Source of the DNA: Oncomelania hupensis
Lineage: Eukaryota > Mollusca > Gastropoda > Littorinimorpha > Pomatiopsidae
NCBI GenBank assembly: GCA_036898135.1
Contig: CM072515.1
Span: 53,262,736 to 53,326,735 of the forward strand
Length of the DNA stretch: 64,000 bases
Reading direction: 5' to 3'
Below the pieces are notes generated by a model. That model had not been told where the DNA came from and made no database searches. It worked only from the letters and a program-made list of their open reading frames with translations. Below are positions 13,646-54,683 of the stretch, piece after piece. Position 1 is the first letter of the stretch. Each line of letters opens with the position of its first letter. The position numbers and the translations under genes are program-made.

Positions 13646-14206
13646 TCCCGTTGGGGTGCCGGGGGTTTCAGTATAAATAGTATCCCCACTTTGTGGAAAT
13701 TTAGTGCTTTAAATTCCCACTGTCGCTGTCTTTCTCATTTGCTCTTTCTCATTCCTGCTCTGTTCTATCAAGCTGCTATGCTATCGTCTTCTTCGCTATA
13801 CCAGTCATCTACCTTTTTTCTTGAAAACTCTTCCGGGACAAGACTCCTTGTTCGTGTATGAGGTCTGTTGGATCAGCTTGGGAATGTTGGACGCTTTCTG
13901 CCAGGTGGTCACTAGGGCTTCCTATGATGTTAATATTTAGCAATGTAGGCATTTTATATGTGTATGTGTTTTGTTGATAATTTATAATGATGTTTGTATT
14001 CTATTTTGTTTTTGTAAACGGGGGTTCGATTAGTTGGGGTTAAGCCTCAGCCGTCCCCTGCGTGGGATGTCTTTATTGTAAAGTGACTGGCTGGTGGAGG
14101 GCATTCAGTTTTCCCACTAGGGTTGTTTCAGCAGATCTTTTATGCGGATCGGGGGTTGTCCGGTCCTGATTTGGCTTGGAAGAGTCCGCTGGATCTAAAG
14201 CAACAA
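13646..14206 (+). mobile_element. NAR short copy
   Basis: It begins at the 'cccgttggggtgccggggg' palindrome, then cagTATAAATAG, the pyrimidine-rich block, 'gaggtctgttggatcagcttggga', 'gtaaagtgactggctggtgg', and ends in the shared tail 'ggtcctgatttggctyggaagagtccgctgga' with a gtaatgtaatg tail. The body has short-type diagnostics ('ccgggacaagact', 'gccaggtggtcac'). A TSD is not clear here. A (CT)n run with 'ggtctctc' follows at 14220-14275. Confidence 0.85.
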
Positions 14207-14325
14207 TTATGTAATGTAATGCTCTCTCTCTCTCTCTCTCTGGTCTCTCTCTCTGGTCTCTCTCTTTGGTTGAGTCTATTTGGCTTGAAATAAATAGATT
14301 TTAGATTTAGATTTTAATGCTTTAT

Positions 14326-14663: not shown

Positions 14664-17600
14664 CTAATATATATAAAATATAAAACATTCAGCACCAATA
14701 ATCATCGGTTTCTTATACAGGCATCCTGATGTACATGTAGACTGGATTAATAACTTCACTTCTATGCTTGATGCTCTAATATTAGAATCTAAAGATTTAT
14801 TCATTTTAGGGGATTTTAATATTGACCTGTATAAACCTAATAAACACTGGACTGATACTATCAAACTTTGCAACATTGAACAACTAGTATCGGGACCAAC
14901 CAGAGTAGCTGCGACTTCTAGCACACTCATTGATCATATATATACAAATAACAAGACGCATGTTGTAGAAGTTTGTGTGCCCGTATTTGCTTGCAGTGAT
15001 CATTATCCTGTTTGAATGTTTAACCTGGAAAAAGAAAGGAGCTAAAATTCCAAAACCAGGACATAAAACAATAACATACAGATCTTTTTCAAAATTTAAT
15101 GAAAATGATTTTCTCTTTGATCTCAGCAACAGCGGTCTCTCAAATGTTTATAATTTTACTGACCCTGAAAATGCTTTATCATACTGGTATTCATTTATGA
15201 ATATTATACAATATGCCTTCTCCTATCTATACCAGAAGAGTTAAATACTATACTAAACCGCCTTGGCTAGACACAGAACTACAAAAGGTCATTTATTTGA
15301 GAGATTATTTAAAGAAACGTGGTAAAGAATATGAATATAAGAAACAAAGAAATGCAGTAACTTCACTAAAAAGAAAGAAAATGAAAACATTTATTACAAA
15401 TTTAATATCGTCCAAAAACAGTTCTAAAAAGATTTGGACAGCAATTCATCACTTAACAAACAAATCAAGTATGTCAAAGGTAATTACCGATATTTCTCCT
15501 AATACTCTGAATTTATTAAAACGTCTGACAGAATTATTACTATTGACAAATCGAAAGAAAACACTAAAAAAATTAACAGACTTTTGTCACTCTAAGAATA
15601 TTAAAAACAAGAGAGATATTCCGTATTTGTCTACAGAATTTGTATATAAAGCACTAAGAAACCTTAAGCAAACAAACTCAAAAGGTGTTGATGAATTGGA
15701 TAGTAAAATATTAAAATTGTCCGCGTCATTCATTACTAACACTTTAACGTACATATACAACTTATGCATAGCCAGATCATATTTTCCTAAAATAACTTAT
15801 GCATAGCCAGATCATATTTTCCTAAAATGTTTAAAAAAGCTAAAGTTATACCCCTTTTCAAGAATGGTGATAGCACTGACCCATCGAACTATAGGCCTAT
15901 TTCAATTCTTTCTACTCTCTCGAAGCCTCTTGAAAAGCACTTAAATAATAATATTCTTGATCATTTTACTAAAAACAGCCTGTTACATGAAAATCAATCA
16001 GGTATTAGAGCTAAACATTCTTGTCACACGGCTCTTACATCTATGATAGAACAATGGCTAAATAATATTAATCAGGGAAAATTGTCTGAAACAATATTTG
16101 TTGACTTTGAAAAAACTTTTGATGTAATAGATCACGACCTTCTTCTACGTAAATTATATGGCATTCATTCTAAATCGCTTGAATTTCAAAAATCGTTTAT
16201 TTCTGACAGAGAACAGTGTGTTTATATAAATAACAAAAAAATCACAATTTGAAATTGTTAAAGCTGGAGTACCACAAGGATCTATTTTAGGACCTTTGTT
16301 ATTTTCTATCTTCATAAATGATCTCCCCCTTCATATTTCTACTTCTTTTGAATTCTTTGCTGATGACACTACATTACACTCTCAAAATACATCAAAGTTT
16401 CTAAACAAGTAAAATTTTTGGGTATTATTTTTGACAGCAAATTTACTTTTCTGCCGCATATTAAATACCTGAGGGAAAGCTGCCAGAAAGGTCTTAACGT
16501 TTTGAAAGTTATCAGCCACACAGACTGGGGAGCAGACAAGCAAACTCTGCTCCTCCTCTATCGTTCTCTGGTACGCTCTAAATTGGATTATGGTAGCATC
16601 GTATATGGTTCCGCTAGGAAAGGCTATTTAAAAGCCTTGGATCCAATCCATCATCAAGGTCTTCGGATCTGTCTGGGTGCGTTTCGCACTTCACCAAAGG
16701 AAAGTCTCTACGCTGAGGCTGGTGAACCTCCCTTAGAGATCCGCAGGCTTCAGCTCGCCATGAATTATTTTCTTAAACTTAAAGCAAACCCTGAAAATCC
16801 CGCTTATGATTGTGTTCTAATTATTATTTATTTAATCAGTTTATAGTCCCCTCTCTTCCCGGTAAGGATTTTCAGAGAGTAAACCCGTTATTTACACTTA
16901 AATACTCCAACAAACCGACAGAAATTCCTCCTTTTGGTATCAGAATACGTCCTCACTTTGACACTGCAGGCATAGATGTTGACTCTGTTAATGATGATCA
17001 ATTGCTAACTGTACTTCCCTCTTGGAACCTCATCAACCCTATTATCAATTTCAGTCTCACATCCTTCAAAAAGACCGAAACTTCTGAAGCTGTTTATAAG
17101 CAACTTTATCTCGAACAATGTTCACTATATAAAGGATATGACAAACTTTTTACAGACGGGTCGAAGAAAGGAGACTCAGTTGCTGCTGGGTCGGTCTCAG
17201 GAAGACACCTAGACCAGCATTTGCAACAGCGTCTACCTGATTTTTGTTCTGTTTATACAGCTGAGCTCAAGGCAATTCATCTAGCTCTGAAACAGGTTTA
17301 TCAATCCAAGAGAACCTCGTTTTTAATCATGTCTGATTCACTGTCAGCACTTCAGGCTCTTTCCACGAGAAAGATATCACACCATTTTCTGGCAGAGATC
17401 CATAACCTCCACACAGAACTTGTTTCTGAGGGTAAAAAGATAGTTTTTATGTGGGTACCTAGTCACATGGGCATCCACGGCAATATTGCAGTGGACAAAG
17501 CGGCTAAAGAAGCTCTGCATCTAGATTTCCCTTCAGAGATTTTCCAGTTTGTTCCATACTCTGACCTGCGTTGTATGACTGGAGTTTATTGTAAACGGCT

Positions 17601-18049
17601 GTGGCAGACTGAATGGTCTTACCCCTTGGGGTCATGAGCAATCTTGCCACTGTAGATTGTTCAAACCTATAAAGGGAACAGTGAAAGCCACAGTTGAAAA
17701 CCTGTCTTTCCTTTATAGGCAAGACGCTTCACTGCGGCAACAGTACCCCCGTTGGAGTGCCGGGGGTTTTCAGTATAAATAGTATCCCCACTTTATGGAA
17801 ATTTAGTGCTTTAAATTCCCACTGTCGCTGTCTTCCTCATTTACTCTTTCCTATTCTTGCTCTGTCCTTCACTCTGCTATACTATCTTCTTCTTCGCTAG
17901 ATCAATGACCTACCTTTTTTCTTGAAAACTCTTCCTGGACAAGACTCCTTGTTTGTGTATGAGGTCTGTTGGATCAGCTTGGGAGTGTTGGACGCTTTCT
18001 GCCGGGTGGTCACTAGGGCTTCCTATGAATGTACTATTTAGCACTATAG

Positions 18050-21000
18050 TGGATTTCGGCTGTGGCCAACAGCCTGGAGAGGATTGGGCCCTGCCAGGTC
18101 TTTTTTTTGCCCAAGACACAACACATGATGAGGCTATCCACTAATTCCATGCCGGATCGGTCGTCGCCCGGCTACACAAGGACCGCGCCTTCCGTTGGCC
18201 ACCAGGACGGAGGTGAAAAGTATGCTACTGATGGACAAATTAGCAAGATCCGCACGAGAAACAACATCGTCATAGGAACCTGGAATGTCAGGACCCTAAC
18301 TGCGGAAGGAAAATTAGAAGAACTGGCCCACGAGCTGGACCACTATCGATGGAACGTTCTAGGTATCAGCGAACTGCGCTGGAAAGGCCTAGGTGAAACA
18401 ACGACTGACAAAGGCCACAAGCTCTATTTCAGCGGTAGAGATGACAGGCACGAACACGGCGTTGGATTCTTGGTCCACAAGAACATTCTAGCCACTGTCA
18501 TGGGTTGCCGCCCAGTCTCCAGTAGACTCATTACCATCCGTCTAAGAGCAACCCCTTTCAACATTACCATCATCCAGGCCTATGCCCCAACATCAGACTA
18601 TGAAGACAGCGAAGTGGAGGATTTTTATGAAAATATACAGGCGGTCCTTGACCAAGTGCCGAAGAAGGACATAGTCATAGTGCAAGGCGACTGGAATGCC
18701 AAGGTTGGCCAAGATGCGCACCACAACTGGGGAGACACATGCGGACCCCACTGCAACAACGAGACAAATGACAGGGGTCTGAGGCTATTGGAGTTTGCCA
18801 GATACAACAATCTGGTACTGGCAAACACGCTTGGTCTCCACAAAAAATCCAGACGATGGACATGGCACAGTCCCGGCGGGGAACATCACAACCAGATCGA
18901 CTACATCATGGTCAAGAAACGCTTCAGATCAAGCATCAACATTGGCAGGACACGCACTTTTCCAGGAGCAGACATTGGAAGTGACCACGATCTCGTGATG
19001 ATGTCTTTCCGGCTCCATTTGAAGAGAGTAAATACAGCAAAGTGCACTAGGCTGAAGTTCGACCTGGACAAACTGCAAGACCCGGAGGTGGCAAAAATAT
19101 TTCAGGCCACAATTGGAGGGAAATTTGCACCACTGCTTATTTTGGGGGCAGGCGAAGTAGATGTCAACACCATGACCAATACCTTCAACTCAGCTGTAAC
19201 AGATGCCGCCACTGAGATCCTTGGCAAGCACCGACCAAAGAAGAAGCCGTGGATCACACCTGAACTTTTGGATCTGTGTGATAAACGAAGAGAGTTAAAA
19301 AAGAAAAAGAACACCTCACAGGGAGCTGATGTCTACCGAAAAATCAACAATGACATCCGAAAAGGCATGCGCACAGCAAAGGAGAACTGGATAGAAGATC
19401 AATGCCAGGAAATAGAGAACAATCTGAACAAGAACAACAGCAAGAAGGCCTACCAGACGGTGAAGCGGCTGACAAGTGTTAAACAGCCCAAAGTCTCCAC
19501 TATCCAAAGCAAGTCTGGCATTTGCCTTACAGAAGAACAAGAAGTCTTGGACAGATGGACAGAGTACTGCTCTGACCTTTACAACCATACACCAAATGGA
19601 GACCCATCAGTTCTAGCATGTCCCGAGAGCAGAGAAGAAGAAGAAATCCTCCCAATTCTCCGGGAAGAAGTTGAGGCAGCAGTGCAATCGCTGAAGAAAG
19701 GGAAGTCAGCGGGAGTGGACAACATACCAGCGGAACTGCTACAAGCAGGAGGAGAAGCGATGACTGATGCTCTCACCATTATCTGTAACAAGATCTGGCA
19801 GAGTGGGGAATGGCCTACACCATGGACCCAGTCGCTTGTCATCACTCTTCCCAAAAAAGGTAACCTTCAGGAGTGTGAAAATTACCGCACCATCAGCCTC
19901 ATCAGCCATCCCAGCAAGGTCCTCCTGAAAATAATACTCAACAGGTTGAAACCACAAGCTGAACAAATCATAGCTGAAGAACAAGCAGGATTCATGGCAG
20001 GGCGAAGTACCACTGAACAGATTTTCAACCTCAGAATAATCTGTGAGAAATACCTACAGCACCAACAACATCTATATCATGTGTTCATAGACTTCAAGAA
20101 GGCATTTGACCGAGTCTGGCATGCAGCTCTATGGGCAACCATGAAAGTTTACAACATCAGCCCTAAAATTATAGAAGTCATCAAAAGCCTGTATGACAAG
20201 GCTACCAGTGCAGTCCTCCATAACAGCGTCATCGGGAACTGGTTCAGAACAACAATCGGTGTGCGTCAAGGATGCCTACTCTCTCCAACACTCTTCAACA
20301 TCTTCCTAGAGCGCATCATGTCAGATGCTCTTGCAGACCACGAAGGCACAGTCAGCATAGGGGGCAGAGCAATCTCCAATCTTCGTTTTGCGGATGATAT
20401 TGATGGATTGGCTGGAGAGGAACAAGAACTTGAACAGCTTGTACAGAGGCTTGACACCACCTCCAGAGCTTATGGAATGGAAATAAGTGCAGAGAAGACC
20501 AAAATGATGACCAACAACACCAATGGCATCAACACGGACATCAAAGTACAAGGCCAATCCCTCAACACAGTGCACAGCTTCAAATATTTAGGAGCCATTG
20601 TGTCAGACAATGGGTCTCGACAGGAAGTCCTCTCCAGGATCGCACAAACAACTGCTGCCCTGACAAGGTTGAAGCCCATTTGGAAAGACAGAACCATCAG
20701 TCTACATTCCAAAGTAAGACTGCTGCGCTCTCTGGTCATCTCCATCTTCCTATATGCTTGCGAAGCATGGACCCTCACAGCAGATCTCCAACGAAGAATA
20801 CAAAGCATGGAGATGAGGTGCTACAGAAGACTTCTGTGCATTTCCTATACCCAACACATCACCAACATTGAAGTCCGACAGACCATCACACAAGCCATTG
20901 GACAACACGATGACCTGCTCACAGTGGTGAAGAAACGGAAACTCCGATGGTATGGCCACGTCACCAGATCATCAGGCCTTGCAAAGACCATTCTGCAAGG

Positions 21001-21196
21001 CACAGTGCAAGGAGGTAGAAGAAGGGGGAGACCGAAAAAGAGGTGGGAGGACAACATTCGAGAATGGACTGGTTTGACACTGAGCAAAGCCATGAGGGCT
21101 GCTGAGGACAGAGAAAGATGGAGTATGCTGGTTAAGCGATCATCTGTGGTGCCCCTACGACCTTCGGGTTATGGGACAGGATAGGATAGGATAGGA
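18050..21196 (+). mobile_element. RTE-type LINE copy 3, intact ORF
   Basis: Flanked by tagcactatag (18039-18049 and 21197-21207); the effective TSD is 8-11 bp because the end of the (GGATA)n tail overlaps it. The copy lacks about 170 bp of 5' sequence present in copies at 26.88 and 59.95 kb. The short 3' UTR with a pentamer tail is typical of RTE elements. With its single long uninterrupted ORF it is the youngest-looking autonomous element in the window. Confidence 0.95.
18062..21184 (+). CDS. RTE retrotransposon polyprotein (endonuclease + RT)
   Basis: A 1040-residue ORF. Residues 72-78 are GTWNVRT, followed by SELRW (103-107), QGDWNAKVG (208-216), NQIDYIM (277-283) and SDHD (307-310), the set expected of an APE/EEP endonuclease that nicks the target. 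The RT domain spans about 540-800: GVDNIPAELL (551-560), YRTISLI (608-614), FIDFKKAFD (675-683), GVRQGCLLSP (733-742) and catalytic FADD (776-779). A basic C-terminal region (GGRRRGRPKKRWEDNIREW) is typical of RTE proteins often labelled 'craniofacial development protein 2-like' in databases. The first ATG is used; the natural start may lie in the missing 5' part. All visible catalytic residues are present. Confidence 0.95.
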   Translation: MANSLERIGPCQVFFLPKTQHMMRLSTNSMPDRSSPGYTRTAPSVGHQDGGEKYATDGQISKIRTRNNIVIGTWNVRTLTAEGKLEELAHELDHYRWNVLGISELRWKGLGETTTDKGHKLYFSGRDDRHEHGVGFLVHKNILATVMGCRPVSSRLITIRLRATPFNITIIQAYAPTSDYEDSEVEDFYENIQAVLDQVPKKDIVIVQGDWNAKVGQDAHHNWGDTCGPHCNNETNDRGLRLLEFARYNNLVLANTLGLHKKSRRWTWHSPGGEHHNQIDYIMVKKRFRSSINIGRTRTFPGADIGSDHDLVMMSFRLHLKRVNTAKCTRLKFDLDKLQDPEVAKIFQATIGGKFAPLLILGAGEVDVNTMTNTFNSAVTDAATEILGKHRPKKKPWITPELLDLCDKRRELKKKKNTSQGADVYRKINNDIRKGMRTAKENWIEDQCQEIENNLNKNNSKKAYQTVKRLTSVKQPKVSTIQSKSGICLTEEQEVLDRWTEYCSDLYNHTPNGDPSVLACPESREEEEILPILREEVEAAVQSLKKGKSAGVDNIPAELLQAGGEAMTDALTIICNKIWQSGEWPTPWTQSLVITLPKKGNLQECENYRTISLISHPSKVLLKIILNRLKPQAEQIIAEEQAGFMAGRSTTEQIFNLRIICEKYLQHQQHLYHVFIDFKKAFDRVWHAALWATMKVYNISPKIIEVIKSLYDKATSAVLHNSVIGNWFRTTIGVRQGCLLSPTLFNIFLERIMSDALADHEGTVSIGGRAISNLRFADDIDGLAGEEQELEQLVQRLDTTSRAYGMEISAEKTKMMTNNTNGINTDIKVQGQSLNTVHSFKYLGAIVSDNGSRQEVLSRIAQTTAALTRLKPIWKDRTISLHSKVRLLRSLVISIFLYACEAWTLTADLQRRIQSMEMRCYRRLLCISYTQHITNIEVRQTITQAIGQHDDLLTVVKKRKLRWYGHVTRSSGLAKTILQGTVQGGRRRGRPKKRWEDNIREWTGLTLSKAMRAAEDRERWSMLVKRSSVVPLRPSGYGTG

Positions 21197-22214
21197 TAGC
21201 ACTATAGGCATTTTATATGTATGTGTTTGGATGATGATTTATAATGATGTTTGTATTCTATTTTGTTTTTGTAACCGGGGTGTTCGCGTAGTTGAGGTCA
21301 ACCCTCAGCCGTCCCCCGCGTGGGATGTCTTTATTGTAAAGTGACTGGCCGGTGGAGGGCATTCAATTTTCCCCCTGGGGTTGTTTCAGCAGATCTTTTA
21401 TGCGGATCGGGGGTTGTCCGGTCCTGATTTGGCTCGGAAGAGTCCGCTGGACCTAAAGCAACAATAAATCAATCAATCAATCACTGAATGGTCTAAGCAA
21501 ATCAATAACAAATTATTTGAAATTCTTCCGGATTTATCTGCTTCTTTGCCTAACTTTGCGTCCACCCGCAAAGAGGAAACTGTTTTGGCTCGCCTTCATA
21601 TTGGGCATACTTGTGTCACCCATAATTTCCTTTTAAAAGGAGAGGAACCACCATGGTGCTTTGCATGTGACAAAACGTTTTCCGTTCATCATTTTATATC
21701 TGAATGTGCTGATCTTTTTAATGAGGTTTTTAAAGTATGCAATCGTCAGAACCTGTTTCAATTTTTACAAGATGTTGGTTTGTTTTATCGCATCTAAATC
21801 ATGTCGTCTTGTCTTGTATTCTTGTTTGGATTTTATTGAAGAAACTGATTTTATTTACATCTTTCAAAATATTTAATTGTTAACAGTTTAATCTCATTTT
21901 ACTTAATTTTTTGTGGTCCTGATTCGGCTCTTGGCAGTCCGCTGGACCCTATAAGCACTGAGTATCTAATCTAATCTCAAAATACAGACTTGAATCATCT
22001 GTGCTCCTCCTTACAACAAGGGGCTATTGAACTACAAGAATGGACTGAATCCAACCACATGGCCCTCAATCCAGACAAAATGAAATCCATGCTAATTACA
22101 ACAAGACAAAAAAGACAAAATTTATCTATACAACTTCGTCCATTAAAAATGTGCAATAAAACAATTGATGAAGCACAATTTCATAAACTTCTTGGTATAA
22201 CTTTAGACAATAAT

Positions 22215-22267
<53 letters not shown>

Positions 22268-22370
22268 GGATTTTTATATAGCAGGTACTCCAGCCTATGA
22301 CCAGACTCACCACGCTTTACATAGTCATTACATAAAAATACATGCACTCGATCAAACATCGCTTTTGCTA

Positions 22371-23062
22371 CCCCTTGGGGTCATGAGCAATCTTGCCACT
22401 GTAGATTGTTCTAACCTATAAAGGGAAAAGTGAAAGCCCCAGCTGAAAACCTGTCTTTCCTTTATAGGCATGACTTTTTCACTGCGGCAACAGTACCCCT
22501 GTTGGCGTGCCGGGGGTTTCAGTATAAATAGTATCCCCACTTTCTGGAAATTTAGTGCTTTAAATTCCCACTGTCGCTGTCTTCCTCATTTGCTCTTTCC
22601 CATCCCCGCTCTGTCCTATCACTCTGCTATACTATCTTCTTCTTCGCTAGATCACTGACCTACCTGTTTTCTTGAAAACTCTTCCTGGACAAGACTCCTT
22701 GTTTGTGTATGAGGTCTGTTGGATCAGCTTGCGAGTATTGGACGCTTTCTGCCGGGTGGTCACTAGGGCTTCCTATGATGTTCATATTTAGCAATGTAGG
22801 CATTTTATATGTATGTGTTTTGTTGATGATGTATAATGATGTTTGTATTCTATTTTTTTTTTGTAACCGGTGGTTCGAGTAGTTGGGGTAAAGCCTCAGC
22901 CGTCCCCTGCGTGGGATGTCTTTATTGTAAAGTGACTGGCCGGTGGAGGGCATTCAGTTTTCCCACTAGGGTTGTTTCAGCAGATCTTTTATGCGGATCG
23001 GGGGTTGACCGGTCCTGATTTGGCTCGGAAGAGTCCGCTGGACCTAAAGCAACAATCAATCA
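22371..23062 (+). mobile_element. NAR long copy in L2-like LINE 3' UTR
   Basis: The TSD is atcgcttttgct (22359-22370 and 23063-23074), 12 bp exact. It runs from accccttggggtcatgagc to an (aatc)n tail and is 692 bp long. It lies opposite in orientation to the host LINE. The TATA-like cagTATAAATAG is present near 22520. Confidence 0.92.
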
Positions 23063-25631
23063 ATCGCTTTTGCTACGATACACCAAAAGACGGAACAGTA
23101 AAGGTAAGAACTATTTACAACTATGTACACAAATGACCAAAAAAAGACGGAAATAGACTATTTACAACTATGTACATAAATGACAAAAAAGAAAGAAATA
23201 GAATAGCAAAAACCTATTCACAGCTATTTATAAGCCCGGTTAGACCCAGGAAGAAAAACAGTATAAATATTTACAGCCGTGTATACACTTACGGATCAGA
23301 CAGAGACAAAAGAGGAGAGAATGGCAGCGGGATAAAAATCAGTCTGAATAATGCAGTTTGAAGAGGTGGTTTTTGAGGGCCTTTTTGAATGTCTGTGTTG
23401 ATTGTATGTTGTGGATGTGGGAGGGAAGGGAATTCCACTGCTTGGGTGCGGAGTAAGCGAATGTACGTTGGCTGTATGTCTTAGTGCGGGTGACGGGAAC
23501 CTTGAGTGTGCGAGTGTCAGCAGAAGATCTTAAAGTGCGTGAAGGGGAGTAGACAGACAGTAGATCAGCAAGGTAGGAAGGACAAGAATCTGTGAAGAAG
23601 TTGTGACAGAGAACAGATAGTTTGTACTCTACACGTGCTTGCACAAGAAGCCAGTGAAGGGAATGTAATAGAGGCGTTTCTTTGCTAAAAATACTAGTCT
23701 AGCTGCTGAGTTCTGAACTTTTTGTAGTTTGTCAATGATGTGTTTTGGGGAGCCAGCGAGGAGAGAGTTGCAATAATAGTCAAGACGAGGAAGGGCGAGA
23801 GCGCAGACTAGGGTTTTGGTGGCAGTGACTGTAAGATAGTGGCGAAAGGAGCTGATTTGGCGGATGGCCGTGTATGCAGAGCGACAGACGTTGGAGATGT
23901 GGTTGTTGATGGACAGGTCTTCGGAGAGAATGTAGCCGAGATTTCTCGCTGAGGATGAGAACTGAATGTTTGTTGTCCCTACTATAAGCGATGTTGGGAG
24001 AGGCGAGAGTGAGGAGGAGGTGTTGTGCTTGTGAATGAGGAGGGCTTCAGTTTTATCGTCATTAACCTTGAGCTTGTTGAGTGTCATCCATGACTTAATG
24101 TATGTGATGCAGTTCTCCAAAGTCTGAACAGTGGAACTAATGAGAGAGGGGGCAGTGAATTTATAAAGTTGTGTGTCATCTGCAAATGACCGACTCTCAA
24201 CAGCTTGCTTTCCGAGCAGGAGAAGCAGTGGCTTGGTGTACAGAGTGAATAACACCGGCCCTAAAACGGAACCCTGAGGCATGCCGCACACCAAGTCTGC
24301 TATGCTGGAGAAACAGCCATCGACAGTGACTGCTTGTGATCTGTCAGAAAGATATGAGTGAAACCAAGCCAAGACCGAGCCAGAGATTCCACAGTAGTGT
24401 TGAAGAGTGTTAAAGAGAATGTGGTGGTCGACTGTGTCAAAGGCGGCTGATAGGTCTAATAAGGTGAGAATGGAGACGTTACCATTATCTAAGGCAAGCA
24501 ACAGATCATTGGTTACCTTTAGGAGGGCTGTCTCAGTGCTGTGGAAGGGTCGGTAGGCAGACTGGTTGGGGCAAAGTAAAGCGTTATGATATAGGTAGGC
24601 AAACAGTTGTTTGATAACAATTTTTTCTATGACTTTGGACAGGAAGGAGAGGTTTGAAACAGGTCTATCCTATCCTATCCTATCCTGTCCCGTAACCCGA
24701 AGGTCGTAGGGGCACCACAGATGATCGTTTAACCAGCGTACTCCATCTTTCTCTGTCCTCAGCAGCCCTGATGGCTTCGCTCAGTGTCAAACCAGTCCAT
24801 TCTCGAATGTTGTCCTCCCACCTCTTTTTCGGTATCCCTCTTCTTCTACCTCCTTGCACTGTGTCTTGCAGAATAGTCTTTGCAAGGCCTGATGATCTGG
24901 TGACGTGGCCATACCATCAGAGTTTCCGTTTCTTCACCACTGTGAGCAGGTCATCGTGTTGTCCAATGGCTTGTGTGATGGTCTGTCGGACTTCGTCGTT
25001 GGTGATGTGTTGGGTATAGGAAATGCACAGAAGTCTTCTGTAGCACCTCATCTCCATGTTTTGTATTCTTCGTTGGAGATCTGCTGTGAGGGTCCATGCT
25101 TCGCAAGCATATAGGAAGAAGGAGATGACAAGGGAGCGCAGCAGTCTTACTTTGGAATGTAGACTGATGGTCCTGTCTTTCCAAATGGGCTTCAACCTTG
25201 TCAGGGCAGCAGTTGTTTGTGCGATCCTGGAGAGGACCTCCTGTCGGGACCCACCATCTGACACAATGGCTCCCAAGTATTTGAAGCCATGCACTGTGCC
25301 AAGGGATTGGCCCTGGACCCTGATGTCCGTGTTGATGCCATTGGTGTTGTTGGTCATCATTTTGGTCTTCTCTGCACTTATTTCCATACCATAGGCTCTG
25401 GAGGTGGTGTCAAGCCTCTGTACCAGCTGTTCAAGTTCTTGTTCCTCTCCAGCCAATCCATCAATGTCATCTGCAAAACGAAGATTGGAGATTGCTCTAC
25501 CCCCTATGCTGACTGTGCCTTCATGGTCTGCAAGAGCATCTGACATGATGCACTCTAGGAAGATGTTGAAGAGTGTTGGAGAGAGTAGGCATCCTTGACG
25601 CACACCGATTGTTGTTCTGAACCAGTTTCCG

Positions 25632-37334: not shown

Positions 37335-37383
37335 CATTGTTTATAGGGTCCAGCGGACTGCAAAGAGCCGAATCAGGACCACT
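37335..37383 (-). repeat. I-LINE 3' tail fragment
   Basis: The minus strand reads 'gtggtcctgattcggctctt', 'tgcagtccgctggaccc' and 'tataaacaatgac', the 3' end of the I-clade LINE. It lies just upstream of the zinc-finger exon and is followed by (GAT)n. Confidence 0.75.
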
Positions 37384-37457
37384 TTGATGATGATGATGAT
37401 AATGATGATGATAACGATGAACACTTTATTTTTAGTATTTTTTGTTTTCTTTTTCAG

Positions 37458-38738
37458 ATTCCAAATGCATGTGCTACACAACTGCTTACTGTCAACTCAA
37501 CACCACAGTCATTATTGGTCAAGTTCTCTTCTGCCTCAGTCACTCCCCACAGTGAAGTCGGTCTCAAAGATCATGAGTGTAGAAGAGAGACAAAGCAGCA
37601 ACAGAAGACCAAAGAGCAAAAGAATCTTGTGTGTGATGTTTGTAATAAAGCTTTTCCTAATGCTAGCAGATTGAAGAAACATAAGGTTATACATACAGGA
37701 GAGAAGAATCACGTGTGTGATGTTTGTAGTAAAGCTTGCAATAAGGCTGGCAATTTGAAGAAACATAAGCTTATACATACAGGAGAGAAGAATCATGTGT
37801 GTGATGTTTGTAATAAAGCTTTCCTTCTGGCTAACCATTTGAAGAAACATAAGCTTATACATACAGGAGAGAAGAATCATGTGTGTGATGTTTGTAATAA
37901 AGCTTTTACTCTGGCTACCCATTTGAAGAAACATAAGCTTATACATACAGGAGAGAAGAATCATGTGTGTGATATTTGTAATAAAGCTTTCGCTCAGGCT
38001 GCCAGTTTGAATTTACATAAGCTTATACATACAGGAGAGAAGAATCATGTGTGTGATGTTTGTAATAAAGCTTTCATTGACTCTCGCCATTTGAAGGTAC
38101 ATAAGCTTATACATACAGGAGAGAAGAATCATGTTTGTGATGTTTGTAATAAAGCTTTCACTGTGGCTCGCAGTTTGAAGTTACATAAGCTTATACATAC
38201 AGGAGACCTCCGAGAGAAAAGTCATGTTTGTGATGTTTGTAATAAAGCTTTCCCTGTGGCTGGCAGTTTGAAGAAACATAAGCTTATACATACAGGAGAG
38301 AAGAATCATGTGTGTAATGTTTGTAATAAAGCTTTCACTCAGGCTCACGTTTTGAAGTTACATATGCTTATACATACAGGAGAGAAGAATCATGTGTGTG
38401 ATGTTTGTAATAAAGCTTTCGCTCAGGCTTGCTCTTTGAAGTTACATAAGCTTACGCATACAGGAGAGAAGAATCATGTGTGTGATGTTTGCAATAAAGC
38501 TTTCACTGAGGCTGGCAGTTTGAAGAAACATAAGCTTATACATACAGGAGAGAAGAATCATGTGTGTGATGTTTGCAATAAAGCTTTCAATCAGGCTGGC
38601 AGTTTGAAGAAACATAAGCTTATACATACAGGAGAGAAGAATCATGTGTGTGATGTTGTTAATAAAGCTTTCACTAGGGTTAGTGATTTGAGGAAGCACA
38701 AGTTGACACATTCGGGACACAAAAAGTCATGTGTTTGA
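37458..38738 (+). CDS. C2H2 zinc-finger protein, 3' terminal exon, 12-13 fingers
   Basis: A strong acceptor (ttttgttttctttttcag) ends at 37457 and the frame is open from 37458 (IPNACATQLL) in phase 0, so this is a last exon whose upstream exons are not seen. Tandem 28-residue fingers (84 bp units) follow the pattern HVCDVCNKAF, variable helix, LKKHKLIHTGEKN. Twelve are complete; the thirteenth reads CDVVNK and has lost its second Cys. Finger 7 is followed by an enlarged linker (TGDLREKSH). Helix positions -1, 2, 3 and 6 vary (for example N-S-R-K in finger 1, Q-H-V-L in finger 9, R-S-D-K in finger 13), as in DNA-binding arrays. A one-base A-run expansion before the TGA at 38736 shifts the frame and truncates the array. 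Nuclear DNA binding is inferred from the family. Confidence 0.85.
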   Translation: MPNACATQLLTVNSTPQSLLVKFSSASVTPHSEVGLKDHECRRETKQQQKTKEQKNLVCDVCNKAFPNASRLKKHKVIHTGEKNHVCDVCSKACNKAGNLKKHKLIHTGEKNHVCDVCNKAFLLANHLKKHKLIHTGEKNHVCDVCNKAFTLATHLKKHKLIHTGEKNHVCDICNKAFAQAASLNLHKLIHTGEKNHVCDVCNKAFIDSRHLKVHKLIHTGEKNHVCDVCNKAFTVARSLKLHKLIHTGDLREKSHVCDVCNKAFPVAGSLKKHKLIHTGEKNHVCNVCNKAFTQAHVLKLHMLIHTGEKNHVCDVCNKAFAQACSLKLHKLTHTGEKNHVCDVCNKAFTEAGSLKKHKLIHTGEKNHVCDVCNKAFNQAGSLKKHKLIHTGEKNHVCDVVNKAFTRVSDLRKHKLTHSGHKKSCV

Positions 38739-38783
38739 CGTTTTTAAGAAAATCTTTTATTTCAGGTTGCCAGTTAAAGAGAC

Positions 38784-40003
38784 TCCCCCCGTTGGGGTGC
38801 CGGGGGTTTCAGTATAAATAGTATCCCAACTTTCTGGAAATTTAGTGCTTTAAATTCCCACTGTCGCTGTCTTTCTCATTAGCTCTTTCTCATTCCTGCT
38901 CTGTTCTATCAATCTGCTATACTATCGTATTCTTCGCTAGACCAGTCACCTACCTTTTTTCTTGAAAACTCTTCCGGGACAAGACTCCTTATTTGTGTAT
39001 GAGGTCTGTTGGATCAGCTTGGGAATATTGGACGCTTTCTGCCAGGTGGTCACTAGGGCTTCTTATGAGGTTATTATTTAGCAATGGACCCCTTGGGGTC
39101 ATGAGCAATCTTGCCACTGTAGATTGTTCTAACCTATAAAGGGAAAAGTGAAAGCCCCAGTTGAAAACCTGTCTTGCCTTTGTAGGCATGACTGATTCAC
39201 TGCGGCAACAGTACCCCCGTTGGAGTGCAGGGAGTTTCAGTATAAATAGTATCCCCACTTTCTGGAAATTTAGTGCTTTAAATTCCCACTGTCGCTGTCT
39301 TCCTCATTTGCTCTTTCCCATTCCTGATCTGTCCTATCACTCTGCTATACTATCTTCTTCTTCTTCGCTAGATCAATGACCTACCTTTTTTCTTGAAAAC
39401 TCTTCCTGGACAAGACTCCTTGTTTGTGTATGAGGTCTGTTGGATCAGCTTGGGAGTGTTGGACGCTTTCTGCCGGGTGGTCACTAGGGCTTCCTATGAA
39501 TGTACTATTTAGCACTATAGGCATTTTATATGTATGCTTTTTGTTGATGATTTATAATGATGTTTGTATTCTATTTTGTTTTTGTAATCGGGGAGTTCGC
39601 GTAGTTGAGGTCAACCCTCAGCCGTCCCTCGCGTGGGATGTCTTTATTGTAAAGTGACTGGCCGGTGGAGGGCATTCAATTTTCCCACTGGGGTTGTTTC
39701 AACAGATCTTTTATGCGGATCGGGGGTTGTCCGGTCCTGATTTGGCTCGGAAGAGTCCGCTGGACCTAAAGCAACAATAAATCAATCAATTTTGTAAACG
39801 GGGGTTTGATAAGTTGGGGTGAAGCCTCTGCCGTCCCCTGCGTGGGATGACTTTATTATAAAGTGACTGGCTGGTGGAGAGCTTTCGGTTTTACCACTTA
39901 GGTTGTTTCAGCAAATCTTTTATGCGGATCAGGGGTTGTCCGGTCCTGATTTGGCTCGGAAGAGTCCGCTGGACCTAAAGTAATAATAATGTAATGTAAT
40001 GTA
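38784..40003 (+). mobile_element. NAR short copy in finger 14, itself split
   Basis: The TSD is agttaaagagac (38772-38783 and 40004-40015), 12 bp exact. It starts at the ccccccgttggggtgccggg palindrome and ends in a (gtaat)n tail. Its own sequence is 38784-39086 plus 39788-40003; a long copy lies between. About 60-75 bp of its body expected at the junction (taggcatttta...ttctattt) are missing, so the second insertion came with a deletion. Confidence 0.88.
39087..39787 (+). mobile_element. NAR long copy nested in a short copy
   Basis: It runs from accccttggggtcatgagc to the (aatc)n tail. No TSD: the left flank is 'ttagcaatgg' and the right flank 'tttgtaaacg', which are about 65 bp apart in an intact short copy. 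This suggests insertion with target deletion or recombination between copies. Confidence 0.85.
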
Positions 40004-41022: not shown

Positions 41023-42200
41023 CCACCATTGTATAGCATAGGATGTTTGTAACCACCATTGTATGGCATGGGATGTTTGTAACCACCATTATATGGCATG
41101 GGATGTTTGTAACCTAAACCACCATTGTATGGTATGGGATGTTTGTAACCACCATTGTATAGCATGGGATGTTTGTAACCACCCTTGTATGGTATGGGAT
41201 GTTTGTAACCACCATTGTATAGCAAGGGATGTTTGTAACCACCCTTGTATGGTATGGGATGTTTGTAACCACCATTGTATACCCCTTGGGGTCATGAGCA
41301 ATCTTGCCACTGTAGATTGTTCTAACCTATAAAGGGTACAGTGAAAGCCCCAGTTGAAAACCTGTCTTGCCTTTGTAGGCATGACAAATTAACTGCGGCA
41401 ACAGTTCCCCCCGTTGGAGTGCCGGGGGTTTCAGTATAAATAGTATCCCCACTTTCTGGAAATTTAGTGCTTTAAATTCCCACTGTCGCTGTCTTCCTCA
41501 TTTGCTCTTTCCCATTCCCGATCTGTCCTATCACTCTGCTATACTATCTTCTTCTTTGCTAGATCAATGACCTACCTTTTTTCTTGAAAACTCTTCCTGG
41601 ACAAGACTCCTTGTTTGTGTATGAGGTCTGTTGGATCAGCTTGGGAGTGTTGGATGCTTTCTGCCGGGTGGTCACTAGGGCTTCCTATGAATGTACTATT
41701 TAGCACTATAGGCATTTTATATGTATGTTTTTTTGTTGATGATTTATAATGATGTATAATGATGTTTGTATTCTATTTTGTTTTTGTAATCGGGGAGTTC
41801 GCGTAGTTGAGGTCAACCCTCAGCCGTCCCTCGCGTGGGATGTCTTTATTGTAAAGTGACTGGCCGGTGGAGGGCATTCAATTTTCCCACTGGGGTTGTT
41901 TCAACAGATCTTTTATGCGGATCGGGGGTTGTCCGGTCTTGATTTGGCTCGGAAGAGTCCGCTGGACCTAAAGCAACAATAAATCAATCAATCAATCAAC
42001 CACCATTGTATAGCAAGGGATGTTTGTAACCACCCTTGTATGGTATGGGATGTTTGTAACCACCATTGTATAGCAGGGATGTTTGTAGCACACATTGTGT
42101 GGCATGTGATGTTTGTAACCACCCATGTATAGCATGGGATGTTTGTAACCACCTTTGTATGGCATGGGATGTTTGTAACCACCATTGTATTACATGGGAC
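41023..42200. repeat. 30 bp minisatellite, ~16 units, split by NAR
   Basis: The unit is 'ccaccattgtatggcatggg' + 'atgtttgtaa'. About nine units precede the NAR copy at 41281 and seven follow it. Part of the array alternates two variants (ccaccattgtatagc / ccacccttgtatggt), a 60 bp higher-order period. With a length divisible by three, both strands stay open (for example GGYKHPMLYN on the minus strand), but no start context or splice sites support a gene. Confidence 0.9.
41281..41999 (+). mobile_element. NAR long copy in the 30 bp minisatellite
   Basis: The flanks are ccaccattgtat (41269-41280 and 42000-42011), 12 bp, although the array itself repeats this word. The copy starts accccttggggtcatgagc and ends (aatc)n. 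A small duplication of 'ataatgatgt' is present near 41755. Confidence 0.88.
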
Positions 42201-42281
42201 CTTTGTGATACCAGTACTGTTATATGATGTGTAATATTTTAACATTGATTGTAAAGGAGACAAAAAGAGAGTTACCCTGCT

Positions 42282-43960
42282 ACCCCCGTTGGGACGCCTG
42301 GGGTTTCAGTATAAATAGTATCCCCTCTTTATGGAAATTTAGTGCTTTAAATTCCCACTGTCGCTATCTTCCTCATTTACTCTTTCCCATTCCTGCTCTG
42401 TCCTATCACTCTGCTATACTATCTTCTTCTTCGCTAGATCAATGACCTACCTTTTTTCTTGAAAACTCTTCCTGGACAAGACTCCTTGTTTGTGTATGAG
42501 GTCTGTTGGATCAGCTTGGGAGTGTTGGACGCTTTCTGCTGGGTGGTCACTAGGGCTTCCTATGATGTTAGCAGGGTTCAGCCTGACACAAAAAAGCTAT
42601 GGGCCATTGGGCCCCTCGGATCAAATTTCAACGGGCCATGATTTCAGCAGTAATTTACGTACATGTAAAAGATAACCTGGAGATATTATTACAGAAATTA
42701 AAACAAAATAGATTATTGTGAGTGTGCATGTGTTGTAAAGCATGTTTACCAACAAAACACTAACCAGAACAGGGATCAGTATTTTGACTTGACTCGGGGC
42801 TCACACAATCATCTTGCGTAGGATTAGCGGCGGTAGACTGTAGTTTAACAGCAGCAAACGACAGTCTAGACTGTCCTACCTCAAGTTTAGTTGGTTTTTT
42901 TGTTTTGTTTATTTTGGGGGAGGGGGTGGGCATTTTCAAAGCGGCACTAAGAAAAATACAAAATCCTCTTTGCACGGACACAACATACGCGCAGACGATA
43001 GCAAATTCTGATTTGGAAGAATCGTACAAAACATCTTATTGGCTGAAAGATCAACATCCGGGCCCTCATAGCCAATCGCTGAACTTGCCTTAGCAAAAGC
43101 ACGTTTGTCGCCTCCAATACAGTGCACTGTTATTGTGGTGGCGCACTGGTACCATAAATCGAAGCGCCATTCGGCCCCTGGCAAGAATTGTAGATGGGTC
43201 ATTTTTAATTTTTATGCGTTAATGGCGCAGGGCGCGCTAGTAAACTGATCCCTGTGTTAGTATTTAGCAATATAGGCATTTTATATGTTTTGTTGCTAAT
43301 TTATAATGATGGTTGTATTCTATTTTGTTTTTGTAACCGGGGGTTCGAGTAGTTGAGGTAAACCCTCAGCCGTCCCCCGCGTGGGATGTCTTTATTGTAA
43401 AGTGACTGGCCGGTGGAGGGCATTCAATTTTCCCACTAGGGTTGTTTCAGCAGATCTTTTATGCGGATCGGGGGTTGTCCGGTCCTGATTTGGCTCAGAA
43501 GAGTCCGCTGGACCTAAAGCAACAATCAGTCAATCAATCAAAGACCAGTCTCCTACCTTTTTTCTTGAAAACTCTTCCGGGACAAGACTCCTTGTTTGTG
43601 TATGAGGTCTGTTGGATCAGCTTGGGAATATTGGACGCTTTCTGCCAGGTGGTCACTAGGGCTTCCTATGATGTTATTTAGCAATGTAGGCATTTTATAT
43701 GTATGTTTTGTTGATAATTTATAATGATGTTTGTATTCTATTTTGTTTTTTTTAAACGTGGGTTCGATAAGTTGGGGTGAAGCCTCAGCGTCCCCTGCGT
43801 GGGATGTCTTTATTGTAAAGTGACTGGCTGGTGGAGAGCTTTCGGTTTTACCACTAGGGTTGTTTCAGCAGATCTTTTATGCGGATTGGGGGTTGTCCGG
43901 TCCTGATTTGGCTCGGAAGAGTCCGCTGTACCTAAAGCAATAATAATGTAATGTAATGTA
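42282..43960 (+). mobile_element. Composite of two NAR copies with TIR insertion
   Basis: The first copy (42282-43542) starts at the CCCCCG palindrome, has a long-type body ('atcaatgacctacc', 'cctggacaag') and an (aatc)n tail; a TIR element interrupts it at 42572-43254. A 5'-truncated short-type piece follows (43543-43960, 'ccgggacaag', (taatg)n tail). The outer flanks gttaccctgct (42271-42281) and gtcaccctgct (43961-43971) match at 10 of 11. Recombination between copies is likely. Confidence 0.8.
42572..43254. mobile_element. hAT-like TIR element, CAGGGWTCAG ends, 6 bp TSD
   Basis: The ends are CAGGGTTCAG and the reverse complement of the right end, CAGGGATCAG. The TSD is tgttag (42566-42571 and 43255-43260). 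A minus-strand ORF (42760-43029) contains QSRLSFAAVKLQSTA and MPTPSPKINKTKK, like the low-complexity N-termini of some hAT transposases (weak). 683 bp, no catalytic domain. Confidence 0.8.
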
Positions 43961-44334
43961 GTCACCCTGCTGTTAGATTGCTTGTTTCTGTATTGATGGT
44001 ACATGAATATGGATGTGATGAGTTACTGAATGTAGGTATGCATGTGAAAAGTGTAGATAAAATCTGTCCTTTTGTGTTAACGCTCATCAGATCCTTTTTA
44101 CTACAACTACTTCATGCTTGCTACAGCTACAGGAGACAATATGGGAGATCTCTAGTGTTCCAGGATTGCATTCCAAAACAATAAAATTGAATGGATTAAT
44201 AAAACTTAAAGAATAATATCTAAGTAAGACTTTTGTGTAAAAATTAATATGGTGTTAATATTCTATGTATTTTTACTTTTTTTGACCTATTTTGTAAATT
44301 CTGTTATTCTCTGCAATATTATTAACCTGGGTTT
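43961..44334. other. Unassigned spacer
   Basis: It continues the sequence that was target for the composite NAR. It may be the far end of the decayed zinc-finger region (a 'gaatatggatgtgatgagtt' word), but no finger can be read with confidence. A+T-rich, no gene seen. Confidence 0.4.
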
Positions 44335-45753
44335 GCCCCTTGGGGTCATGAGCAATCTTGCCACTGTAGATTGTTCTAACCTATACAGGGAAAAGTGAAA
44401 GCCCCAGTTGAAAACCTGTCTTTCCTTTATAGGCATGACTGATTCACTGCGGCAACAGTACCCCCGTTGGGAGTGCCGGGGGTTTCAGTATAAATAGTAC
44501 CCCCACTTTTTGGAAATGTAGTGCTTTAAATTCCCACTGTCGCTGTCTTTCTCATTTGCTCTTTCTCATTCCTGCTCTGTCATATCAATCTGCTATACTA
44601 TCTTCTTCGCTAGATCAGTGACCTACCTTTTTTCTTGAAAACTCTTCCTGGACAAGACTCCTTGTTTATGTATGAGGTCTGTTGGATCAGCTTGGGAATG
44701 TTGGACGCTTTCTGCCACCCCTTGGGGTCATGAGCAATCTTGTCACTGTAGATTGTTCTAACCTATAAAGGGAACAGTGAAAGCCCCAGTTGAAAACCTG
44801 TCTTGCCTTTGTAGGCATGACTAATTCACTGCGGCAACAGTCCCCCCCGTTGGAGTGCCGGGGGTTTCAGTATAAATAGTATCCCCACTTTCTGGAAATT
44901 TAGTGCTTTAAATTCCCACTGTCGCTGTCTTCATCATTTGCTCTTTCCCATTCCTGATCTGTCCTATCACTCTGCTATACTTTCTTCTTCTTCGCTAGAT
45001 CAATGACCTAACTTTTTTCTTGAAAACTCTTCCTGGACAAGACTCCTTGTTTGTGTATGAGGTCTGTTGGATCAGCTTGGGAGTGTTGGACGCTTTCTGC
45101 CGGGTGGTCACTAGGGCTTCCTATGATTGTATTATTTCGCACTATAGGCATTTTATATGTATGTGTTTTGTTGATGATTTATAATGATGGTTGTATTCTA
45201 TTTTGTTTTTGTAACCGGGGTGTTCGCGTAGTTGAGGTCAACCCTCAACCGTCCCCCGCGTGGGATGTCTTTATTGTAAAGTGACTGGCCGGTGGAGGGC
45301 ATTCAATTTTCCCACTAGGGTTGTTTCGGCAGATCTTTTATGCGGATCGGGGGTTGTCCGGTCCTGATTTGGCTCGGAAGAGTCCGCTGGACCTAAAGCA
45401 ACAATAAATCAATCAATTAAATCAATCAACGCTTTCTGCCGGGTGGTCACTAGGGCTTCCTATGATGTTATTATTTAGCAATATAGGCATTTTATATGTA
45501 TGTGTTTTGTTGATAATTTATAATGATGTTTGTATTCTATTTTGTTTTTGTAACCGGGGGTTTGAGTAGTTGGGGTAAAGCCTCAGCCGTCCCCTGCGTG
45601 GGATGTTTTTATTGTAAAGTGACTGGCCGGTGGAGGGCATTCAATTTTCCCACTAGGGTTGTTTCAGCAGATCTTTTATGCGGATCGGGGGTTGTCCGGT
45701 CCTGATTTGGCTCGGAAGAGTCCGCTGGACCTAAAGCAACAATCAATCAATCA
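44335..45753 (+). mobile_element. NAR long copy A, split by NAR copy B
   Basis: The flanks are attaacctgggttt (44321-44334 and 45754-45767). Its own sequence is 44335-44716 plus 45441-45753. Starts gccccttggggtcatgagc, ends (aatc)n. Copy B is inserted into its 'ggacgctttctgcc' segment. Confidence 0.9.
44717..45428 (+). mobile_element. NAR long copy B nested in copy A (reference copy)
   Basis: The TSD is acgctttctgcc (44705-44716 and 45429-45440), 12 bp exact, within another NAR. At 712 bp it is a good reference: 5' palindrome ccccttgggg at 44718, TATAAAGGG near 44765, second palindrome CCCCCGttggagtgcCGGGGG near 44845, TATAAATAG at 44871-44879, shared tail at 45355-45400, then (aatc)n. Confidence 0.93.
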
Positions 45754-45765
45754 ATTAACCTGGGT

Positions 45766-46315
45766 TTCCCCCGTTGGGGTCCGGGGGTTTCAGTATAAAT
45801 AGTATCCTCACTTTCTGGAAATTTAGTGCTTTAAATTCCCACTGTCGCTGTCTATCTCATTCCTGCTCTGTTCTATCAATCTGCTATACTATCTTCTTCG
45901 CTAGACCATTCACCTAACGTTTTTCTTGAAAACTCTTCTGGGACAAGACTCCTTATTGGTGTGTGAGGTCTGTTGGATCAGCTTGGGAATATTGGGCGCT
46001 TTCTACCAGTTGGTCACTAGGGCTTCCTATGATGTTCATATTTAGCAATGTAGGCGTTTTATATGTATGTGTTTTGTTGATAATTTATAATGAAGTTTGT
46101 ATTCTATTTTGTTTTTGTAAATGGGGGTTCAATAAATTAGAGTATAGCCTCATTGTCCCCCGCGTGGGATGTATTTATTGTAAAGTGACTGGCTGGTGGA
46201 TAGCTTTCAGTTTTACCACTAGGGTTGTTTCAGCAGATCTTTTATGCGGATCAGGGGTTGTCTGGTCCTGATTTGGCTCGGAAGAGTCCGCGGGACCTAA
46301 AGCAATAATCATGTA
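45766..46315 (+). mobile_element. NAR short copy at reused target
   Basis: The TSD is attaacctgggt (45754-45765 and 46316-46327), the same 12 bp that flank copy A. It starts ttcccccgttggggtccggg and has a short-type body ending 'caataatcatgta'. It is more diverged than copies A and B. Confidence 0.9.
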
Positions 46316-46458
46316 ATTAACCTGGGTAGCAACAAAATAAATTATAATAACATTGTTACCCAGCTATCAAGTTTGTAGGAATCTTCTGAGACTAAAGCTA
46401 ATTATTTTATAACACATGGGAAGTGGAGTAAGAGAGAAGGAGATTAAAAAAAGAGCAT

Positions 46459-52619: not shown

Positions 52620-53328
52620 TTGATTGATTGATTGATTTATTGTTGCTTTAGGTCCAGCGGACTCTTCCGAGCCAAATCAGGACCGGACAACCCCCGATCC
52701 GCATAAAAGATCTGTTGAAACAACCCCAGTGGGAAAATTGAATGCCCTCCACCGGCCAGTCACTTTACAATAAAGACATCCCACGCGAGGGACGGCTGAG
52801 GGTTGACCTCAACTACGCGAACTCCCCGATTACAAAAACAAAATAGAATACAAACATCATTATAAATCATCAACAAAAAAACATACATATAAAATGCCTA
52901 TAGTGCTAAATAGTACATTCATAGGAAGCCCTAGTGACCACCCGGCAGAAAGCGTCCAACACTCCCAAGCTGATCCAACAGACCTCATACACAAACAAGG
53001 AGTCTTGTCCAGGAAGAGTTTTCAAGAAAAAAGGTAAGTCATTGATCTAGCGAAGAAGAAGATAGTATAGCAGAGTGGTAGGACAGATCGGGAATGGGAA
53101 AGAGCAAATGAGGAAGACAGCGACAGTGGGAATTTAAAGCACTAAATTTCCAGAAAGTGGGGATACTATTTATACTGAAACCCCCGGCACTCCAACGGGG
53201 GGAACTGTTGCCGCAGTTAATTTGTCATGCCTACAAAGGCTAGACAGGTTTTCAACTGGGGCTTTCACTGTACCCTTTATAGGTTAGAACAATCTACAGT
53301 GGCAAGATTGCTCATGACCCCAAGGGGT
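52620..53328 (-). mobile_element. NAR long copy with a paralogous empty site
   Basis: The TSD is ataccaatacca (52608-52619 and 53329-53340), 12 bp. The first copy of the duplicated unit has the uninterrupted site near 49256 ('agataccaataccaaataaa'), which fixes both ends. 709 bp, minus orientation, (aatc)n tail at the left. Confidence 0.96.
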
Positions 53329-54488: not shown

Positions 54489-54571
54489 ACCCCCGTTGGA
54501 GTGCCGGGGGTTTCAGTATAAATAGTATCCCCACTTTCCGGAAAGTTAGTGCTTTAAATTCCCACTGTCGC
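54489..54571 (+). mobile_element. NAR 5' fragment cut by a gypsy LTR
   Basis: It starts at the CCCCCGttggagtgcCGGGGG palindrome, then cagTATAAATAG, and stops at 'cactgtcgc' where an LTR begins. The rest of the copy is not found in the window. Confidence 0.85.
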
Positions 54572-54683
54572 TGTAATAACTGAGCCAGGACACAGAGCAA
54601 CCGTTTTGCTTCTTTATTACGTTCTCGCCAAGTGCGCCTCCTCGCACGAGAGTTACAAGGGAGGTAATTCTATTGTCTTAACA
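54572..54683 (-). repeat. 112 bp LTR of a Ty3/gypsy element
   Basis: Minus strand: tgttaagacaatagaattac ... cagttattaca, with TG..CA ends and an aataaag word. It is preceded on that strand by a polypurine tract 'aaaaggaggag' (54684-54694), as expected for a 3' LTR. The LTR is very short. Confidence 0.75.

Follow-up and report, generated by a model that had tools for sequence, protein, structure and literature searches.

A putative non-autonomous retroelement family of Oncomelania hupensis with target duplications of about 12 bp and a 3′ hairpin region in common with an RNase H-carrying LINE

Copies of NAR in the window

The window, by which the whole 64,000-bp stretch of Oncomelania hupensis DNA analysed here is meant (G000:C5:53262736-53326735, in a genome of 1.45 Gb and 428 contigs that was searched as well), harbors numerous copies of NAR, an element with a length of 550-710 bp. 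A blastn search of the window with the 712-bp query 44717-45428 returned 17 pieces, which were read as 11 copies and two fragments, so the at least ten copies announced by the original prediction are indeed present. Seven of them are of the long form, starting at 17620, 22370, 39088, 41281, 44333 and 44717 on the forward strand and at 53328 on the reverse strand, and four are of the short form, with starts at 13646, 38784, 42282 and 45766. The fragments are represented by a 5′-truncated copy (43258-43545) and an 85-bp piece of the 5′ end (54490-54574, forward strand). The long form has about 127 additional bases at the 5′ end compared to the short one, and the tails differ as well, being (TGTAA)n in the short form and (AATC)n in the long form. 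The elements had been described as seemingly encoding no protein, and in agreement with this no stop-to-stop frame of at least 120 aa lies wholly within any NAR of the window; three frames of such length reach briefly into NAR edges (ends at 17637, 22421 and 41291).

The focal long copy (44717-45428, forward strand) is nested in another NAR and flanked by two copies of the 12-bp sequence ACGCTTTCTGCC located at 44705-44716 and 45429-45440, its target being position 374-385 of the host element. In the unbroken NAR, which is the query itself, this site is single, which shows that ACGCTTTCTGCC was truly duplicated. The host (44333-45753, forward strand), a long NAR that the focal insertion divides in two, stands in tandem with a short NAR (45766-46315, forward strand), with one common 12-bp duplication between them. 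As the two elements of this tandem (44333-46315) share the middle copy, ATTAACCTGGGT is present three times, namely at 44321-44332, 45754-45765 and 46316-46327.

A second empty site is provided by the long NAR at 17620-21482 (forward strand), which is itself split by an independent RTE-type LINE and flanked by ACTGAATGGTCT at 17608-17619 and 21483-21494. It interrupts the coding region of an RNase H-carrying LINE of greater age, and joining the flanks with one ACTGAATGGTCT restores the open frame of the latter up to its stop codon.

The other long copies include those at 22370-23062 on the forward strand (duplication ATCGCTTTTGCT at 22358 and 23063), at 52620-53328 on the reverse strand (duplication ATACCAATACCA at 52608 and 53329) and at 41281-42000 on the forward strand, the last being located inside a 30-bp tandem repeat. 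The short NAR at 38784-40003 (forward strand) is flanked by AGTTAAAGAGAC at 38772 and 40004 and is split by the long NAR 39088-39791; around the latter no duplication is present, and some 65 bp of target are missing. An old short NAR at 42282-43959 (forward strand) carries the 5′-truncated copy mentioned above and has an imperfect 12-bp duplication, AGTTACCCTGCT/AGTCACCCTGCT, at 42270-42281 and 43960-43971, while for the short NAR at 13646-14221 (forward strand), which ends in a (TGTAA)n tail, a duplication was looked for and none was found. All six 12-mers quoted in the original prediction are located where it had put them.

In the genome, the best 40 of 2140 first-look candidates were scored, and all of these copies are nearly full length with 98-100% identity to the query, so that at least part of the NAR family is young. 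Older copies are under-sampled, since these 40 are those most like the query.

Length and sequence of the NAR target duplication

The duplication was measured in two sets of long copies, with its length taken as the longest match between the flanks, which may contain tail bases. The first genome-wide set consists of 40 copies, 32 of them fetched with short flanks and eight, including the focal one, coming from the initial genome search. In 38 of these (the two unmeasured copies lack the 3′ motif as written) the duplication was 8 bp in one copy, 10 bp in one, 11 bp in eight, 12 bp in 18, 13 bp in five, 14 bp in three and 15 bp in two. The second set of 45 copies was found via a 5′-end pattern, with window copies included and duplicates removed, and gave 10 bp in one copy, 11 bp in eight, 12 bp in 22, 13 bp in five, 14 bp in five and 15 bp in two, with no duplication in one copy and a location in a tandem repeat in another. 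The 8-bp case of the first set, L035, is absent from the second one, its match beginning at base 6.

Thus, 43 of the 45 long copies have a duplication of 10-15 bp, which is exactly 12 bp in 22 of them (mean 12.3, SD 1.1). When possible bases of the (AATC)n tail are removed, the lengths are 8-14 bp with a mean of 10.4, and on this tail-corrected reading 31 of the 43 copies are compatible with exactly 12 bp and 34 with exactly 11 bp. In a control with mismatched pairs, in which the 5′ flank of one copy was compared with the 3′ flanks of others, matches of at least 9 bases occurred in 5 of 1806 pairs. The distribution in the sampled copies is therefore not broad, and the near-constant 12 bp of the original prediction stands as a narrow range with its mode at 12, though not as a strict constant.

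As for the short form, 11 starts found by pattern gave 12 bp in two copies, 8 bp in one (the imperfect 12-bp case) and no duplication in eight, three of which have no 3′ end within the available stretch; this count omits the copy at 45766 with its 12 bp. The four short copies of the window have 12 bp in two cases, an imperfect 12 bp in one and none in one, and a short NAR at the genome locus L042 has a 12-bp duplication, the other short starts of the fetched loci giving none, in two cases because the 3′ end was absent. The constancy in the short form rests on few copies.

Alignment of 43 sites revealed no strong target motif; the only departures are a preference at the base with which the duplication begins and a weak bias directly in front of it. 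The targets, which had been said to share no obvious sequence, conform to this in general, with the exception that the duplication starts with A in 29 sites and with T in 11. Bases of the tail may account for part of this excess in the first position of the longest match.

The RTE-type LINE inside NAR

The LINE that splits the NAR at 17620 is of the RTE type and occupies positions 18050-21198 on the forward strand (edges approximate). It is 5′-truncated, has a tail of (GGATA)n and contains a 1044-aa open frame coding for an endonuclease (EN) and a reverse transcriptase (RT), in which no RNase H match was found. The NAR-ORF-NAR layout made it a candidate parent of NAR. However, 36 of its 37 other scored copies match the internal 3.15 kb only, with 100% identity as printed, and the remaining one (L042, 96%) does lie in a NAR, though elsewhere in that element and flanked by a separate duplication, GGGAATAT. 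A few other RTE-type copies have NAR pieces near by, and at other genome loci the element reaches further in the 5′ direction. The repeat of 9-11 nt found at its edges in NAR is the LINE's own duplication.

Both ends of the RTE-type LINE were found at 25 of 30 loci, and a script slightly more permissive than the one used for NAR gave no duplication in seven cases, 5-7 bp in five, 8-12 bp in 12 and a microsatellite in one; chance matches of 5-6 bp occurred in 147 of 600 mismatched pairs in the corresponding control. With 36 of its 37 other scored copies printed at 100% identity, this LINE shows a very recent burst.

The RNase H-carrying LINE group

The older LINE interrupted by the NAR at 17620 (16367-21970, forward strand) is a decayed relative of the LINE group described below and retains the end of an RT (recognized by eye), an RNase H domain (Pfam), a C-terminal knuckle, a 3′ UTR with a hairpin of the sister form described below and a (TAATC)n tail. 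The genome search with its RNase H part, in which 144 matches out of 15,251 candidates were scored, revealed a group of LINEs with RNase H homology across the query, open frames of up to 1233-1256 aa and several subfamilies, which is hereafter considered the candidate helper of NAR. One of the subfamilies, represented by the five copies L084-L088, which are about 77% identical to the query of this search, is referred to as the 77% subfamily.

Judging from coordinates, members of the group are 5.96-6.09 kb long without the tail. They begin with (T)GCCCCCACGGGCTCGG and have a 5′ UTR of about 0.64 kb, followed by ORF1, which in L091 codes for 486 aa with three CCHC-like motifs recognizable by eye and no Pfam match. 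At the start of ORF2 lies an AP-type endonuclease, which was read in a single member of the 77% subfamily (PF14529, 3.4e-21), and a C-terminal knuckle is visible by eye. EN, RT and RNase H were seen together only in database relatives, where they occur in one frame and through which the putative RT of the helper was assigned; the named ones come from arthropods and a limpet. Over about 0.7 kb at the 5′ end, identity is 93-94% between L092 and L090/L091, which belong to two helper subfamilies, and beyond this stretch the ORF1 part of L092 has no blastn match to L090/L091, which hints at an exchange of 5′ ends between subfamilies.

Both ends could be read for 18 copies, 12 of them full-length and six 5′-truncated. 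All 12 full-length copies are flanked by duplications, the lengths of which are 11, 11, 12, 12, 12, 13, 13, 14, 14, 14, 14 and 16 bp, with the 16-bp one sitting in a (GATT)n microsatellite and some lengths including 1-2 bases of the element start. Two of the truncated copies have 13 and 12 bp, and the other four have none (one of them with 13 bases of flank only). The five copies of the 77% subfamily gave 11, 11, 13 and 16 bp (the last in the repeat) and none; as only these five of the 18 belong to it, the footprint mostly comes from sister subfamilies. The footprint of the helper group is like that of NAR and unlike that of the RTE-type LINE.

The 45-nt 3′ hairpin region

The 3′ end is identical in all five fetched copies of the 77% subfamily, consisting of the 45 nt GGTCCTGATTTGGCTCGGAAGAGTCCGCTGGACCTAAAGCAATAA and, after them, a tail of the (TTGTA)n type. 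The same region is found at all 12 NAR 3′ ends of the window, with one mismatch in nine of them, two in two and three in one, and the first 42 nt agree in six of the 12. In the focal copy it occupies positions 45360-45404 on the forward strand and has one mismatch. Out of the 18 fetched LINE 3′ ends, five have the NAR form of the hairpin and 13, from two subfamilies with a (TATC)n tail, have the sister form. The predicted stem-loop of the short NAR folds better than shuffled sequences (z -3.3, 0 of 200 shuffles as good) and that of the long NAR less clearly so (z -1.8, 10 of 200), while the sister hairpin is no better than shuffles (z +0.7 for the window LINE end and +0.5 for a mini-copy). The (TTGTA)n tail of the helper is near the (TGTAA)n of the short NAR and unlike the (AATC)n of the long one, a tail that none of the LINE 3′ ends read possesses.

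The likeness between NAR and the LINE ends abruptly above the hairpin, so that the 45 nt alone are in common. A blastn comparison (word size 7) of NAR with five LINE 5′ loci from two subfamilies returned short matches only (E ≥0.27), apart from an inverted match of the NAR tail (best E 6e-4), which lies next to L090 in the DNA that served as its target. The search with the exact hairpin pattern found 32 sites outside NAR and helper contexts, a few of them in local clusters, and none with the reversed pattern as a control; no third large family carrying the hairpin was seen in it, with a filter that passes only about one fifth of unrelated contexts.

There are also mini-copies of about 50-60 bp consisting only of the LINE-type 3′ hairpin and the tail, located in the window at 29053 and 29152 (forward strand) and 37358 (reverse strand) and in the genome at L064, L042, L008 and L066. 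They look as if reverse transcription often halted near the hairpin base, and some of the 32 pattern sites may be such mini-copies.

Comparison with known systems

The ingi clade of trypanosomes is described as having target duplications with a conserved size of 12 bp, short LINE partners and tandems of autonomous and short elements with the duplication alone between them (PMC3820030), and a duplication of about 13 bp is given for a family from Leishmania (PMC2323293). Like the trypanosomatid pairs ingi/RIME and L1Tc/NARTc, NAR appears to have a LINE partner and a duplication of about 12 bp (10-15 bp, mode 12), which is narrow and not exact, and the tandem of the window resembles those of the ingi clade, with the difference that it is formed by a long and a short NAR. 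L1Tc is reported to encode RNase H (PMC4035085).

There are several differences from these systems. RIME and NARTc are described as having the 5′ end in common with their LINE (PMC4035085; PMC2323293), while NAR shares the 3′ 45 nt only, and no common 5′ end was found in the two LINE subfamilies compared. Unlike in ingi-type pairs, no HDV-like ribozyme match was found (E ≤10) in 44200-46400 or in L090-L092, and unlike the ingi-type LINE, the helper has a separate ORF1 with CCHC motifs. In this respect it is similar to the Drosophila I factor, the ORF1 of which contains three Cys-His motifs and the ORF2 an AP endonuclease, an RT/RNase H and, at its C-terminus, a further Cys-His domain (PMC2881922), the likeness being one of layout only.

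NAR also resembles the SINEs with a LINE-derived 3′ end in that it codes for no protein and has a body of its own with a LINE-like last stretch, but differs from them in the absence of a tRNA head (ARAGORN) or an Rfam match and in its length of 550-710 bp. Persaeus of a CR1 LINE and other short internally deleted elements (SIDEs) are described as non-autonomous and LINE-related (PMC6740152); unlike in those, no match to the 5′ part of a LINE was found for NAR. Duplications of 10-12 bp are given for two copies of SR3 from the RTE clade (PMC1291365), and an insertion signature of their own is ascribed to RTE LINEs (PMC13295347). LINEs of this clade, such as SR3 and Bov-B, differ from the candidate helper of NAR, the RTE-type frame of the window having no RNase H match and the element having another tail. 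Ingi-type LINEs are mentioned as abundant in some gastropods (PMC11203168). No description of the NAR/helper pair was recognized among the papers listed by literature searches.

Nature of NAR and proposed mechanism

ARAGORN found no tRNA in the window, and no Rfam match reached the gathering threshold; 44200-46400 gave three chance-level matches (E 4-9). Neither HDV nor hammerhead ribozymes had an Rfam match at E ≤10 in this region or in L090-L092. The tRNA, 5S or 7SL head of a classical SINE was thus not found in NAR, and since neither program showed a small-RNA head, the element is called SINE-like and not a SINE. It has the other features of such elements, namely no coding capacity, a 3′ end shared with a LINE, a variable simple-repeat tail and a target duplication. 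A variable 3′ repeat tail and a LINE-type 3′ end speak against a DNA transposon or MITE.

Based on these comparisons, it is quite reasonable to suggest, with a probability of about 78%, that NAR is a non-autonomous, SINE-like retroelement and owes its mobility to an RNase H-carrying LINE of the same genome with an I-superfamily layout. The helper itself is very probably another LINE of this genome, carrying RNase H and arranged like members of the I superfamily. NAR RNA would be made from a putative promoter, and the LINE protein would then recognize the 45-nt 3′ hairpin region, the likeness of which in the two elements is observed directly. The AP-type endonuclease would nick the target, and reverse transcription would presumably prime on the short tail repeats, the number of which varies between NAR copies, as slippage would give. 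A second nick about one helical turn downstream, made by what may be the same enzyme, would produce the duplication of mostly 11-13 bp seen with both NAR and the LINE.

The original prediction of one enzyme with a fixed nick spacing is supported, with the refinement that the spacing is better described as 12 ± ~1 bp than as an exact value. The one-enzyme reading is favoured because both the 3′ hairpin region and the duplication length of NAR recur in one LINE group of this genome.

Among other explanations, NAR might, like RIME with respect to ingi, be a short internal-deletion element, in this case of some further subfamily of the LINE group that escaped the search, with which it would have both ends in common. 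The missing tRNA and Rfam matches and a length that is large for a SINE would fit this, several helper subfamilies exist of which few were read, and both the short NAR and the LINE open with a run of C and then a run of G. It is nevertheless considered unlikely: apart from the inverted tail piece, the five LINE 5′ loci gave only short matches, the similarity at the 3′ end breaks off above the hairpin, and the 32 other hairpin sites revealed no third large family, with a filter passing only about one fifth of unrelated contexts. None of the fetched subfamilies matches NAR at both ends, and NAR is classified as SINE-like rather than as a proven internal deletion because nothing detectable is common with the helper 5′ part or with the 3′ UTR above the hairpin. 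Derivation by deletion from the RTE-type LINE at 18050-21198, suggested by its location inside NAR between two 9-11 nt repeats and by the second such case at L042, is refuted by the internal-only matches of 36 of the 37 copies, the other NAR position and the separate duplication GGGAATAT of L042, the (GGATA)n tail, the shorter and looser duplications and the further 5′ extension elsewhere.

It could also be argued that the way in which copies were picked and matched made the duplication length look narrower than it is, as the 40 genome copies are the closest to the query and the longest-match lengths contain tail bases. This is very improbable given the 5 of 1806 matches in the mismatched-pair control and the agreement of the window copies; besides, a similar measurement gave another distribution for the RTE-type LINE and a similar one for the helper group.

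If NAR is indeed SINE-like and mobilized by this LINE group, it would represent an unusually regular insertion footprint tied to a specific helper LINE via the common 3′ end. The combination known from the ingi clade, a 12-bp duplication and short partners, seems to be resembled here outside trypanosomes, at least at the sequence level, which suggests that conserved duplications of about 12 bp also occur with RNase H LINEs elsewhere. Since the helper frames are intact and NAR copies are young, the pair may serve as a natural system for the distance between the first and the second nick in non-LTR integration. A more tentative idea, which we would sooner doubt than adopt, is that a nick spacing of about one turn (11-13 bp) is conserved in RNase H LINEs of the I superfamily well beyond trypanosomes and that NAR belongs to a headless SINE-like class docking by the 45-nt hairpin region alone, so that another lineage would have its own equivalent of RIME and NARTc.

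Other elements of the window

The L2-like LINE at 23632-24669 (reverse strand) was rejected as a helper, as its 3′ end, read across an inserted NAR, enters a (TTA)n stretch without such a hairpin. Many open frames of about 1147 aa, the longest one with 1294 aa, occur among its 117 scored genome matches. The region 37347-38738 (forward strand) contains a 463-aa open frame with what looks by eye like a C2H2 zinc-finger array of 12.5 repeats of 84 bp, the start of which overlaps a LINE-type hairpin fragment.
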